Notes under the pieces: generated by a model
Databases searched by the model: none
What the model saw: only the letters and a program-made list of their open reading frames with translations
Told to the model about the DNA's origin: nothing
Position numbers and translations under genes: made by a program
Shown: piece by piece, positions 17,274-23,122 of the stretch
How the letters are laid out: each line of letters opens with the position of its first letter
How positions within the stretch are numbered: the first letter of the stretch is position 1
Assembly (NCBI GenBank): GCA_004296885.1
Contig: SCVN01000002.1
Span: 186,001 to 250,000 of the forward strand
Length of the DNA stretch: 64,000 nt
Source: Nitrospirota bacterium
Lineage (GTDB): Bacteria; Nitrospirota; Nitrospiria; Nitrospirales; Nitrospiraceae
Direction of reading: 5' to 3'

Positions 17274-17356
17274 TCTCCTTGCGTTTAACATCGGCTCTTG
17301 GCAAGGAAACCGCGCGGTGTGCCGGATATCCCCTTTGCCATCGGGAGAGGAGTGAG

Positions 17357-17965
17357 ATGCGGGTGCCGGGGTTCTTCTCGCGGGTCCGTCGTATTCTCCT
17401 GTTAGGCCAACGCCGGCAGCGGTTGAAGTTTGCGCTGAACGTCTGGCTGCAGGATCCCAGTCTGTATCCTCTGGAGACTTACCCCCGATTCGATGTCAGG
17501 TTGTGTGTGCGAACGTTTCTTCGCAACCTGACGGTGATGCATTCGTATGTCAAGACGCATGGATCCCGGTCCTTGACCTATCTGCAACCATTTAACGGCT
17601 TCGGAGTCAGAAGGATGTCCCTCAGGGATAGGGCTTCTGTGGAGCATCTCCGTCGGCGTATCACGGTTGATGGGCTCAACGAGTGGGACGCCATGCGTGA
17701 GTTCTACAGCCAGGCCGCCGTGGATTTCCGGCGGCTTGGATCCGACGAATTCCATGACTTGACGGATGTGTTCGATCATTACCCCGAGGGAACCGTTATC
17801 TATATTGATCAGGTTCATTGCTCGGACAAGGGTTATGACTTAATGGCACAGCGTATGGCTAAAGATATCTTGAAGCAAGAGGGGCGTGTGGCGGGGTGTG
17901 GTTCGGAAAGGCCAGCGCTGTTCTCAGAGCCGGCGCAGGCTAAAGTGCCGCGTGAGGCCAGATGA
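17357..17965 (+). CDS. SGNH-hydrolase C-terminal half as a separate gene
   Basis: 202 residues from ATG 17357, chosen for GAGAGGAG just upstream. It lacks the Ser block but carries a typical C-terminal half: SLTYLQPFNGFG, then IYIDQVHCSDKGYDLMAQ, where Asp and His are spaced as in the SGNH catalytic DxxH block V. Its stop overlaps the start of the next gene (ATGA), which encodes the N-terminal half. The pair is thus in reverse order relative to a normal single gene. The good SD and coupled overlap argue that it is expressed. It is likely one part of a sugar O-acetyl esterase or transferase. Confidence 0.6.
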   Translation: MRVPGFFSRVRRILLLGQRRQRLKFALNVWLQDPSLYPLETYPRFDVRLCVRTFLRNLTVMHSYVKTHGSRSLTYLQPFNGFGVRRMSLRDRASVEHLRRRITVDGLNEWDAMREFYSQAAVDFRRLGSDEFHDLTDVFDHYPEGTVIYIDQVHCSDKGYDLMAQRMAKDILKQEGRVAGCGSERPALFSEPAQAKVPREAR

Positions 17966-18921
17966 CTTTCGCATGGGGACTGCTCATAGCCGCCCTGTTC
18001 CTTGTTCTCATGCTGGAGTCGTGGGTGCGTTTTCGCCGGCTGCGCCTCGCACCGCTTCGGCTAAGATTGTGGCATGCCTGCTTTTTGTTGAGTCGAGAGG
18101 CTGTCGAAGCGATCACCGAAATTCATCAACGGGTTGAACGGGCTGGCGGACGGTCGTTTGATGATCTGTTTGAGCTGTATGCCTCGGCGTCCGGGAAATC
18201 CAAGGCCGAGATCGAGGCCTTGTTCGGGTTTCAAATGTCCTGGTGGAAACTCACGACGTCAAGACTGGTGCTTCAAAACATTCTCCAGTGGCACATGGGG
18301 CTTGTTCCCAAGCCGGACCAGCGGTTGAGGACTGTATCGATCGCAAGCGATGGTACGCGCGCCACGGACTCCGGACTCGCCTGCGAGACGGCGGAAAACG
18401 GTCTCAAGCGTGTCGTATTGACAGGCGGGTCGGTCGCCTACGGTTATGGCGCGACGAGAGACGCCCACACCGTTGCCAGCAGGCTTGAATATTATCTTAA
18501 TTCGGCTGATCCGAACGGGGGGCGCCGGTGGCAGGTGGTGAACTACGCATTCCCCGCCGGGAATTCATTCCAGGAGCTCATTTCTGTCCTCCAGAAGGTT
18601 GATTTTACCAATCAGCCTCCTGCCTACGTCGTGTCGTTGACTGGGTGCAATGATGTGGACCAACAGTTCTCTTCTGCAAGGCCAAATATTTCGGCCTTGT
18701 CGCAGGGATATACGAATGCTCTCCAGAGTGTGGGGCCGATGGGCCTAATTCTACGAAGAAGTTTGCGCAGGCATCTTCTGTGTGTGGGCGCACTTAGACG
18801 CTTCGTTGCGGCTTACGAGCAATGGTCCGGGGACCACGGTCAAGGAGGCCGGCAGGCCGGTGCGGAGAAGGGCAAGCCGTTTGACGAGATCGATAACCCC
18901 AATATTTATCCTCTCTGGTGA
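17962..18921 (+). CDS. SGNH-hydrolase N-terminal half as a separate gene
   Basis: 319 residues. An N-terminal hydrophobic segment (WGLLIAALFLVLMLESWV) suggests a membrane anchor. The catalytic Ser lies in VVLTGGSVAYGYGATRD (block I), the oxyanion Gly in NYAFPAGNSFQE (block II) and Asn in SLTGCNDVDQQ (block III). Block V (DxxH) is absent; the protein ends at NPNIYPLW, which resembles DPSLYPLE near residue 33 of the preceding gene. Together the two genes hold every block of one SGNH enzyme. The 182 bp after its stop hold no continuation in any frame. Confidence 0.6.
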   Translation: MTFAWGLLIAALFLVLMLESWVRFRRLRLAPLRLRLWHACFLLSREAVEAITEIHQRVERAGGRSFDDLFELYASASGKSKAEIEALFGFQMSWWKLTTSRLVLQNILQWHMGLVPKPDQRLRTVSIASDGTRATDSGLACETAENGLKRVVLTGGSVAYGYGATRDAHTVASRLEYYLNSADPNGGRRWQVVNYAFPAGNSFQELISVLQKVDFTNQPPAYVVSLTGCNDVDQQFSSARPNISALSQGYTNALQSVGPMGLILRRSLRRHLLCVGALRRFVAAYEQWSGDHGQGGRQAGAEKGKPFDEIDNPNIYPLW

Positions 18922-19103
18922 TTGTGAGCAATTCTGGCCACTGTGTCCGATGTCGAAGGACGGCGATATGCTGGATCGGCTCGAGGGAGGTGCAATCTGG
19001 TGTGGATGAGACCTCCTGCCTGGCGATAAGAGACTTGCGCTGAACAGACACTGCGCCCAGTTCGCCTCAGAGGATGAGCGGGTGGTCGTCAAGGAGATAG
19101 ACG

Positions 19104-20192
19104 ATGGCGAATCTTAGGGATTTCGGATACAGGGTCGTGTGCATTGAGGTCACAAACCGCTGCAACATGGCCTGCTCGTTTTGCCCCTTACCTATCCGAG
19201 ATTCTCCACTGCAAGATATTCCCAAGGACGGGGTGTTTAGGATATTGGAGTCCATAGCGGCCATTGATGGCATTGATTGGGTCGCGTTCCATCAATACGG
19301 CGAGCCCTTGCTCTATCCGGGTATCTGGGACTGCATTGATCGGTGCAAGGATCTGGGACTCCGGACCCAGTTAGTCACCAACGGCCTCTTACTGACGGAA
19401 CGGAACGTCGCGTTGCTGCTCGAACACCAGCCTGATATTTTGCGCATTTCCGTTCAAACCCTGAATCCGGCCCACCATGCTGCGACCCGCGGGGTCGATG
19501 TTGAATTCGACGTGTATATTCAGCGAGTGGCGGCCTGCTTGGGGCGGCTTCTAGACACCGAGCATCGGATTGCAGAGGTTAGAACAGACGTTGCGGTGAA
19601 CGATGAGCGGCATTACGGCGTACGTGGGAAGCTGCATCTCATTGCGCAAGCTGTCGGGGCAGCCGAACGCGGAGATCCCACCATTTATGATACGACGCCG
19701 AAGGCGTCGCGTCCTCACCTGATCCGTTTCCTCAATCTCATTCAGGAACACTCCCGTTCGTTCCGTGTATCGCTGGATCATCTTGACGAATGCATAGACC
19801 GCTATTATTCAAATGCCGGGTTGTCTGAGGGCTGGTGGACTGCGTACGTTTTGAAGGGGAACAATAAAATAGCTTACAAGCAGTTTATCAATGGCCGCCG
19901 GATATTGAGCAATCATCCGGTCGAGCGATCGTCGTGCGATACGGACATCGTCGGGATCCTCGCGGATGGGACTGTGACGTGCTGCTGTCTGGATTACAAG
20001 GGGTTCACCGGCTTGGGCAATATCTTTTCGGATGATCTGCTATCGATCCTGCAGCGTAATAAGTCCATCATCGACGGTCTGCACGGGGGAGGCCAATTGC
20101 ATTTCGAGGCTTGCAAGAAATGTCATGGGACTCCGACCAAGGCGGGCGCAGCAATAAAGAGCGCTGCCAATTTTTTCAGATATCGCTGGTAG
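19104..20192 (+). CDS. radical SAM protein
   Basis: 362 residues, SD AAGGAG seven bases upstream. CNMACSFC (C20, C24, C27) binds the SAM-coordinating cluster; FHQYGEPLLYPGIWDCI and TQLVTNGLLLTERNVALL are typical later blocks. The C-terminus has TVTCCCLDYKG and ACKKCHGT, suggesting a SPASM-type auxiliary cluster. The DNA is visibly richer in A/T than the flanking genes. Possible roles include sugar dehydration or epimerisation; the substrate is unknown. Confidence 0.78.
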   Translation: MANLRDFGYRVVCIEVTNRCNMACSFCPLPIRDSPLQDIPKDGVFRILESIAAIDGIDWVAFHQYGEPLLYPGIWDCIDRCKDLGLRTQLVTNGLLLTERNVALLLEHQPDILRISVQTLNPAHHAATRGVDVEFDVYIQRVAACLGRLLDTEHRIAEVRTDVAVNDERHYGVRGKLHLIAQAVGAAERGDPTIYDTTPKASRPHLIRFLNLIQEHSRSFRVSLDHLDECIDRYYSNAGLSEGWWTAYVLKGNNKIAYKQFINGRRILSNHPVERSSCDTDIVGILADGTVTCCCLDYKGFTGLGNIFSDDLLSILQRNKSIIDGLHGGGQLHFEACKKCHGTPTKAGAAIKSAANFFRYRW

Positions 20193-20327: not shown

Positions 20328-21134
20328 GTGCAAATAGAACATGGATGCTCCGGGGGAGGGGATCTGCTCTGCCGAGACGAGGAGCTGTATGCCTGGCTGC
20401 GTCTTGCGGAGGATGCTGCGCGGAGCGGCGGCGAATATCTGGCCAAAACAGCCCTGACCGGCGCACGCGTGACAGCCGAGTCCGGTCGAGACGTCAAGCT
20501 TGAAGCGGATCATCTATCTGAGGCGCACATCCTGGAAGTGCTGCATCGGAAGTCTAACTTCCGGATTCACTCCGAAGAACGGGGCATGGTTAGGGGGCAG
20601 GGCGACGACGACCTGTGCTGGATTGTGGATCCGCTTGACGGCAGCTTCAACTATTTGCGAGGGATTCCTTCGTGTTGCGTCTCAGTGGGTCTGTGGAGGA
20701 AGAATGAGCCGTTGCTCGGTGCGATCTATGATTTTAAGAGAGAGGAATTGTTTGCCGGAATTGTCGGTGTTGGCGCTTGGCTGAACAAAGCTCCCATCCA
20801 TGTGGGCTCTGTGACGGAGCCTGGGCGCGCGGTGCTGTGTACCGGCTTTCCGGTCGAGATGGATTTCTCAACTGACGCCCTCTCCCGGTTTGTCAATCTG
20901 ATCCGTGCCTACAAGAAGATCAGAATGCTTGGATCCGCCGCCTTGTCTCTCGCCTATGTGGCGGCCGGCCGGGCGGATGTGTATTACGAACAAGACATCA
21001 AGCTGTGGGATGTGGCGGCTGGCGCGGCTATTGTAGTGGCGGCCGGCGGTCGCATCCTACGGAGCGAGTCCGACAAGAAAGATGCCGTCACGTTATACGC
21101 CGGCCCGCCCAGCATGCCGGCGCTCTGTCCATAG
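20328..21134 (+). CDS. inositol-monophosphatase/CysQ-family sugar phosphatase
   Basis: 268 residues, GTG start. Metal-binding residues are present: Glu in HSEERG (~84), DPLDGSFNYL (D101, D104) and the late Asp in KLWDVAAGAAIV. The family hydrolyses phosphate monoesters using Mg2+. In this cluster it may dephosphorylate a sugar phosphate made by the SIS isomerase, or a ulosonate phosphate. CysQ-like nucleotide phosphatase activity cannot be excluded. A 135-bp gap with no recognisable gene precedes it. Confidence 0.82.
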   Translation: MQIEHGCSGGGDLLCRDEELYAWLRLAEDAARSGGEYLAKTALTGARVTAESGRDVKLEADHLSEAHILEVLHRKSNFRIHSEERGMVRGQGDDDLCWIVDPLDGSFNYLRGIPSCCVSVGLWRKNEPLLGAIYDFKREELFAGIVGVGAWLNKAPIHVGSVTEPGRAVLCTGFPVEMDFSTDALSRFVNLIRAYKKIRMLGSAALSLAYVAAGRADVYYEQDIKLWDVAAGAAIVVAAGGRILRSESDKKDAVTLYAGPPSMPALCP

Positions 21135-21187
21135 AAGCGAAAAAACCCAATCCCGGATTGACCTTCCCCCTGCTTGTCACGCCTCGC

Positions 21188-23122
21188 ATGCCAACACTCT
21201 GGGTGATCTGGAAAAGGCCTGAGATCCTTCCCGGAAGCGACGGGACGATCCTGAGCTTTTTGCCGCCATCCGTTGAAGCCGAGTTGGAGCAAACCCGTCC
21301 GGGATCGCTTATCCGGGGGCGGGAAGCGTCGCTCAAGGTTCGCGAGCGCGCAAGGAAACTTTATGTACGGCTCGTGGCGCGGATCGGGACCGCGCGCGAT
21401 GCGGAAGGCCGCACGCTGCGGTCCAGGCTGGCTGTGGCGGGCCAGGCCAGCCGCTGGTGGTACCATCTGACCCCCTTCAAGGATTGCGAGGCCGACCCGG
21501 CCTTTCAGTGGATCATCGCGATCCTGACCATCGAAGAGGTCGCCCGCGCCCAGGGAACGAAGCATCTGGTCCTCGTCTCCGCGCCGTTCGAAGTCGCGGA
21601 GGTGTTGAGGACAGGGTTTGCCGTCGAGGAGCAATCGCCCGGCCGTTCGCGCGGCGCATGGCGCCTCTGGCTGGCGGGTGCTGTGTCCCGCCTCAAGTAC
21701 GGCATCAAGGCCTTTCTGGAGTTCCGGGCCTTGCGAGCGTTCCGCGGAGGCCGGCCTGACCAGCGTTTCGATGTGGTCCTGAGCGGATTCTGGGATTGGA
21801 GCGTCGGCTGGGATGATTCGACGCAATCGCTTGCGGACCGCTACTTCAAGGCGCTTCCCGCCGCCCTGCGTGCGCAAGGGACGGCGTCCGTCGGATGGGT
21901 GACGTGGTTTGACCCATGGACGGCGCAGGATGGGAAGAAGCGACGGCTCGACGACTCTCTAGCGCCGGCTGCGAACCGGCTGGATCTGGTCATCCTGCAA
22001 ACGTTTCTTCGGGCCGGCGATATTGTCTTTGCGCTCGTGAATGTGCGAGCGCTCATGACCTACCTTGATATGCGTTGCCTGCCGGATTTCCGGCAGGTCT
22101 TTCATGAAGGCGGCCTGGATTATTATCCCCTCTTTGCGGATTCCCTTTTGAGCGGATTCCTCGGTTCCGGCATTCCGCATTGCGAACTCGTGGCCACCGC
22201 CACGGAACGAGCTTGCCGGCGCCTGCGTCCGCGACTCACCGTGAGCTTTCTGGAACACTTTCCTTACGCGCGCGCCCATTATGAAGGGGTGAAGCGGGCG
22301 GCAACCGGCACGGTCAACTACGCCATGCAGCATGCCAGTTACAACCATGAAAAGACCTTTCTCTTCCTTGATCCGGAGCTGGAGTTTCACGGAAGGCCTG
22401 ACGGTTGCGAAGTTCCGAAGCCTGACTACGTCTTTGCCATGGGTACGCTTGGACGGGATCTGTTTCTGGACTGCGGGTATCCGCCGGAGCGGGTCCTCCT
22501 CACCGGGTCTGCCCGGTACGATCACGTGTCGGCACCGGCTATGGGCGCTCCGTTGAGCAGGCTGCACAAAAAAGGGGGAATGCGGGTGCTGATCGTCGCA
22601 GCACACCATGCGGACCTGGATTTCGAGATGCTGGATGCCGTCTGTTCCGCCTCACGGGAGCTCGACGGGGTGCATCTGTTTCTCAAAGCCCATCCATTCC
22701 GGCGGCTGGCGGAACAGCCTGAGTTTGCGCCCTACAAGCCGGTCGTCCGGATGGCGGAGGGCACCCTGGAAGAGGAGCTGGCGCAGGCGGACCTGATTCT
22801 CTTTACCTATTCGACGGTGGCCGAGGAGGCGTTCATCCGCGGGAATGCAGTCTGGCAGTGGTGCTCCTTCGATTTCAACGGTTCGGCGCTGGGCGAGGCC
22901 TTGCCGATTCCCAGGTTCTTCTCGGTCTCCAGCTTGCGCCAGGCCTTGCTGGAATTCCGCGCTGATCCGGGCAAATTCCTTCCAACGTCGGCGGAGCGGC
23001 ACATCGCGCTGGAGCGTCTGTTTTATAAAGGCGACGGCCGTGCTGCGGACCGCATCGCCTCGGTGCTGACCCAGGCCGCCAGTCGCGATGAAGCCCTGGC
23101 GCTGCCGGCCTGTGGACGGTAG
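21188..23122 (+). CDS. surface carbohydrate biosynthesis protein (O-antigen-locus family)
   Basis: 644 residues from ATG 21188. A long N-terminal part of unknown fold (MPTLWVIWKRPEILPGSDG...) is followed by DVVLSGFWDWSVGW and VDVVL-like strands. The C-terminal half is GT-B-like: GTVNYAMQHASYNHEKTF, MGTLGRDLFLDCGYPPERVL, then ADLILFTYSTVAEEAFIRG. It resembles large proteins of spirochaete and other O-antigen clusters that are annotated only as surface carbohydrate biosynthesis. It appears related to the gene at 1698. Cytoplasmic, probably a transferase. Confidence 0.65.
   Translation: MPTLWVIWKRPEILPGSDGTILSFLPPSVEAELEQTRPGSLIRGREASLKVRERARKLYVRLVARIGTARDAEGRTLRSRLAVAGQASRWWYHLTPFKDCEADPAFQWIIAILTIEEVARAQGTKHLVLVSAPFEVAEVLRTGFAVEEQSPGRSRGAWRLWLAGAVSRLKYGIKAFLEFRALRAFRGGRPDQRFDVVLSGFWDWSVGWDDSTQSLADRYFKALPAALRAQGTASVGWVTWFDPWTAQDGKKRRLDDSLAPAANRLDLVILQTFLRAGDIVFALVNVRALMTYLDMRCLPDFRQVFHEGGLDYYPLFADSLLSGFLGSGIPHCELVATATERACRRLRPRLTVSFLEHFPYARAHYEGVKRAATGTVNYAMQHASYNHEKTFLFLDPELEFHGRPDGCEVPKPDYVFAMGTLGRDLFLDCGYPPERVLLTGSARYDHVSAPAMGAPLSRLHKKGGMRVLIVAAHHADLDFEMLDAVCSASRELDGVHLFLKAHPFRRLAEQPEFAPYKPVVRMAEGTLEEELAQADLILFTYSTVAEEAFIRGNAVWQWCSFDFNGSALGEALPIPRFFSVSSLRQALLEFRADPGKFLPTSAERHIALERLFYKGDGRAADRIASVLTQAASRDEALALPACGR

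Follow-up and report, generated by a model that had tools for sequence, protein, structure and literature searches.

Enzymes of the SGNH superfamily occur with two orders of their conserved blocks, and both orders exist as single chains (PMC9487903). The circularly permuted O-acetyltransferases AlgX and AlgJ are single-chain proteins with a Tyr in block III, a DxH motif in block V and a block I of the GTSYS type, and PatB1, likewise one polypeptide, has KDS and TDHHW motifs (PMC9487903). CgnD was reported to release a peptide-derived alkaloid core (PMC10070186). Natural complementing polypeptides and permutation by duplication have been described for the split DNA methyltransferase M.AquI and for permuted C5-methyltransferases (PMC5944983, PMC3320104). 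Whether circular permutations arise by duplication or through fission and later fusion is debated, and intermediate forms count as key evidence (PMC3320104).

In the window, i.e., the whole stretch of 64,000 nucleotides analysed here, one SGNH catalytic set is distributed over two neighbouring genes, A and B, with the C-terminal half encoded first (Table 1). The preliminary description had proposed this arrangement, and family profiles, residue conservation and separate structure models all agree with it. The frames of both genes are free of internal stops and frameshifts. The stretch GAGAGGAG precedes the ATG start of gene A, Shine-Dalgarno-like sites are present for both genes, and A and B are probably translationally coupled. 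Codon log-odds per codon were 0.19 for A and 0.16 for B in the annotated frame and negative in the remaining frames, placing both genes at the low end of the range of their neighbours (0.15-0.37); the weakest coding signal within the pair belongs to the tail of B. Fusion of the two products via -1 frameshifting at the ATGA overlap was rejected, as no slippery heptamer was seen there by eye.

Table 1. Coordinates of genes A and B and of their sequence features in the window.
Feature	Position	Strand	Remarks
Shine-Dalgarno-like stretch	17341..17353	+	GGGAGAGGAG; 5' of gene A; read from sequence
Gene A	17357..17965	+	C-terminal half of SGNH hydrolase; 202 aa
DQVH, block V	17807..17818	+	catalytic Asp151 (codon 17807-17809) and His154 (codon 17816-17818) of A
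ATGA overlap	17962..17965	+	start of B / stop of A
Gene B	17962..18921	+	N-terminal TM helix and N-terminal SGNH half (strands 1-3); 319 aa
TM segment of B	17962..18018	+	mean hydropathy 2.15; Arg-rich C-terminal side
GGSVAYG, block I	18424..18444	+	nucleophile Ser157 of B (codon 18430-18432)
GCND, block III	18643..18654	+	oxyanion-hole Asn230 of B (codon 18649-18651)
C-terminal linker tail of B	18712..18918	+	ends in NPNIYPLW; predicted disordered

Searching each half against single-chain SGNH proteins, as had been suggested, showed that B and A match complementary parts of the same family. A profile was built from 30 single-chain relatives with the window proteins excluded; it gives 94.7 bits for B at positions 76-226 and 55.2 bits for A at positions 251-372, without overlap between the two ranges, and when A and B are joined in the canonical order they form one domain of 146 bits. 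Such complementary, non-overlapping matches indicate that A and B are not chance look-alikes. The relatives were collected by scanning GTDB genome contigs with an alignment whose lead sequence was the two halves joined canonically, which yielded 60 loci; because the scan pattern was the Ser block alone, the profile score of A represents fairly independent evidence. In Pfam, A had no match, and B had only a weak GDSL match and a weak ALGX match below the cut-off (E 0.064).

The closest relative of A and B shares about 34% identity with them. In an alignment with 40 single-chain relatives, nearly all have the same Ser, Asn, Asp and His as the pair. Conservation was counted on the relatives alone, without the window proteins. 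Every column invariant in all relatives is retained (5/5 in A and 10/10 in B), as are 25 of the 28 columns conserved at 90% or more, and 59 of 164 majority-residue columns (36%). The assignment of the DxxH block V to the first gene stands, since the Asp151 and His154 columns are invariant across 32/32 relatives and both residues are kept in A. For the second gene, which had been credited with the Ser, Gly and Asn blocks, Ser157 and Asn230 are borne out: G155, G156, S157, A159 and G161, together with G228 and N230, are invariant in 26/26 relatives and are retained in B. For the block II Gly, Gly200 of B is a candidate, and its column varies among single-chain relatives. Judging from these alignments, a freely drifting pair would not be expected to retain exactly the invariant columns, and this selective retention suggests constraint through most of the divergence. 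The retained residues may nevertheless predate the split, as a single-chain ancestor could have kept them before a recent split; the split could thus postdate most of the divergence, and the conservation pattern gives no date for it.

CgnD (PDB 8a2n) was the best solved-structure profile match for each half searched independently (A, 1e-10 at residues 222-344; B, 2.6e-9 at residues 30-154), and it was again the top Foldseek match for both when separate AF2 models of A and B were used. In structural alignments, A lies on CgnD residues 211-347 with a Z of 6.1, where several other SGNH structures score equally or slightly higher (best 8.1), and B lies on residues 17-155 with a Z of 9.6. The CgnD residues covered by neither half, 156-210, match the linker. 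The model of A (mean pLDDT 77.5, well scored at about residues 45-175 and mostly 78-94 over residues 51-170) consists of a helix, strand 4, two helices, strand 5, the DQVH motif and a helix, and structural alignment also places it on the first half of AlgJ (residues 98-230, Z 6.0) and of PatB1 (109-243, Z 5.4). For B, the structural matches listed include neither AlgX nor PatB1, an absence that is uninformative. The model of B contains a long N-terminal helix and strands at 148-155, 189-194 and 222-226 with the helices that belong to them, while pLDDT drops to about 34-57 from residue 240 onward.

The TM segment of B begins at residue 1, with no Lys or Arg before it and six within the 20 residues after it, and the positive-inside rule applied to these flanks predicts a cytoplasmic domain. 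Most relatives carry Lys or Arg ahead of the TM segment; a few, like B, do not. According to this simple rule, B is probably an inner-membrane anchor with its domain in the cytoplasm. Gene A encodes neither a signal nor a TM segment, and a cytoplasmic domain of B would fit a joint active site with A.

The nearest relatives among the 60 loci consist of one chain of about 370-415 aa, in most cases with an N-terminal TM helix, and normal-order single chains occur in many phyla as well as in the same bacterial family. We searched 175 genomes of this family, 396 of the phylum (the two sets overlap) and 274 of one other class with the C-half profile. Outside the window, most of the matched open frames are of sufficient length to encode a single chain, and no second reversed pair was found among the relatives inspected, all of which are single-chain or broken in the normal order. 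Among the loci inspected, the proposed search for the same arrangement in related genomes thus showed the reversed order only here. Several short frames were considered as reversed splits and rejected: L125, L118, L141 and L142 are normal-order broken copies, L124 is interrupted by an assembly gap (a run of N), L140 stops at a contig end, and L126 is an ordinary small GDSL protein. At L141 (2673-3722, from another class), a distant SGNH relative has an N-half ORF followed by a C-half ORF, and its break represents a fission or a nonsense change.

The genome of the window holds no other single-chain member of the CgnD-like family that would make A and B redundant. A 610 aa membrane protein with a distant SGNH domain was also observed on another contig (C15) of this genome (L143:2071-3900). 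One genome of the same genus contains distant single-chain relatives only, and close sequence relatives were found neither in a 369-genome sample of one class and three same-genus genomes nor in 72,556 plasmids, 50,697 phage records and viral contigs. The open-access papers searched yielded no description of a split SGNH hydrolase; the superfamily and the permuted order in single chains are already known, and a permuted split was encountered neither at another inspected locus nor in this literature.

The A-B pair is flanked by a D-2-hydroxyacid dehydrogenase-like gene and a radical SAM/SPASM gene within a surface-polysaccharide cluster, which includes genes for a KdsB-like cytidylyltransferase, a GmhA-like isomerase, methyltransferases, a TIGR04326-like surface carbohydrate protein and a glycosyltransferase. 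None of the relative loci compared shows synteny in the flanking genes. The GC content of A, B and the radical SAM gene (17357-20192) is 0.54-0.57 versus 0.57-0.64 for most of the cluster, as if these three genes had arrived jointly. In the stretch that separates B from the radical SAM gene (18922-19103), one frame is slightly coding-like (log-odds 0.07 per codon), without a long ORF. Further downstream, the inositol-phosphatase-like gene (20328-21134) and the TIGR04326-like gene (21005-23122) overlap by 130 bases as listed, and the true start of the latter is probably downstream of its first GTG.

As to how the split arose, the preliminary description had noted similar joint sequences in the two halves and suggested tandem duplication followed by reciprocal loss. 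The motifs compared, DPSLYPL and NPNIYPL, resemble each other weakly and close to the level of chance, since 3.6-7.6% of shuffled sequences and 3-5% of slices of unrelated sequence reach their similarity score (3-8% overall), and the sequences preceding them in the two halves show no similarity. The joint motif was also absent from about 60 single-chain relatives in a simple pattern search. The resemblance of the joints therefore does not prove a duplication. A tandem duplication with later reciprocal loss is possible, yet no direct DNA repeat was found, and neither the 84 bp that precede A nor the 182 bp that follow B showed any trace of the absent halves. Duplication and reciprocal loss, fission with relocation, and the meeting of two paralogous fragments are all possible origins.

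The explanation that we favour, with a probability of roughly 0.57, is that A and B constitute a functional two-chain SGNH hydrolase with permuted gene order, whose complementary halves are CgnD-like in kinship and would together form a working enzyme. According to this model, the open edges of strand 3 of B and strand 4 of A would associate and restore the sheet of five strands, placing Ser157 and Asn230 of B beside Asp151 and His154 of A. B would tether the complex to the inner membrane, with the domain on the cytoplasmic side. Judging by the genes nearby, the likely reaction is hydrolysis of an ester or transfer of an acyl group, with a precursor of a surface polysaccharide as the target, and our guess from the same genes is that the substrate is an ester of such a precursor.

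The main rival to a functional two-chain enzyme, which we consider unlikely although it deserves serious weight, is that A and B are inert leftovers of one or two SGNH genes, stranded by recombination in a variable polysaccharide cluster, with frames that are intact because little time has passed since the event. Polysaccharide clusters rearrange frequently, the branches of A and B are very long, and the arrangement was seen in a single genome; the broken normal-order copies among the relatives and a coding signal that is low by the standards of the cluster point in the same direction. However, exact complementarity together with 15/15 invariant residues would not be expected of random remnants, the stop-start overlap is accompanied by Shine-Dalgarno-like sites, neither gene has acquired a frameshift or a premature stop, and the flanks bear no traces of the missing parts.

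It is improbable that A and B go back to two SGNH paralogues within the operon, of which one retained its C-terminal and the other its N-terminal half, and that they now act as a chimeric pair or separately. The best scores of the two genes do fall on different relatives (L039, L100 and L053 for A; L024 and L029 for B), and the joints are not clearly homologous. The trees of A and B nevertheless reveal no conflict, although the window branches are very long, too long to be placed: a grouping of both halves with L100, L102 and L104 was rejected for neither half (AU p 0.63 for B), and the same grouping is already present, with weak support, in the best tree of A. A single half, moreover, lacks a full catalytic site. 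An assembly artefact, in which the halves of a normal single-chain gene were swapped during assembly, is very improbable. The source genome (3.26 Mb, completeness 100, contamination 0.16) is a draft of 23 contigs, analysed here from its assembly, yet three wrong joins would be needed and a repeat was found at none of them; A and B meet in an exact stop-start overlap, and the locus lies far inside a 255 kb contig.

If the two-chain reading is correct, a natural split esterase or acyltransferase would be added to the known enzymes, and an unfused pair in permuted order with a canonical SGNH site would make the transition to circular permutation directly testable in the laboratory. Beyond this, we suggest tentatively, as a possibility with the odds against it, that A and B are a living intermediate, functional and coupled through ATGA, between canonical S-G-N-H enzymes and circularly permuted H-S-G-N enzymes. 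In that case, a small change at the ATGA overlap could fuse A and B into a permuted single chain.

Compared with the described systems, the pair resembles CgnD and its single-chain relatives of about 385 aa in the Ser, Asn, Asp and His residues and in the linker between the halves. However, these proteins are one chain in S-G-N-H order, whereas the locus has two chains with the H-bearing gene first, and CgnD acts as the crocagin leader-peptide hydrolase in a gene context unlike that of A and B. M.AquI has a fold unrelated to A and B, and its halves are in the normal order. The permuted order of blocks is shared with PatB1 and the DHHW family, but A and B lack the KDS and TDHHW motifs of that family and have the canonical GCND and DQVH instead. 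The H-S-G-N order of AlgX and AlgJ, the circularly permuted SGNH O-acetyltransferases, matches the gene order of A followed by B, from which they differ in that A and B are two chains with a canonical GxND (GCND) and a canonical DxxH (DQVH).
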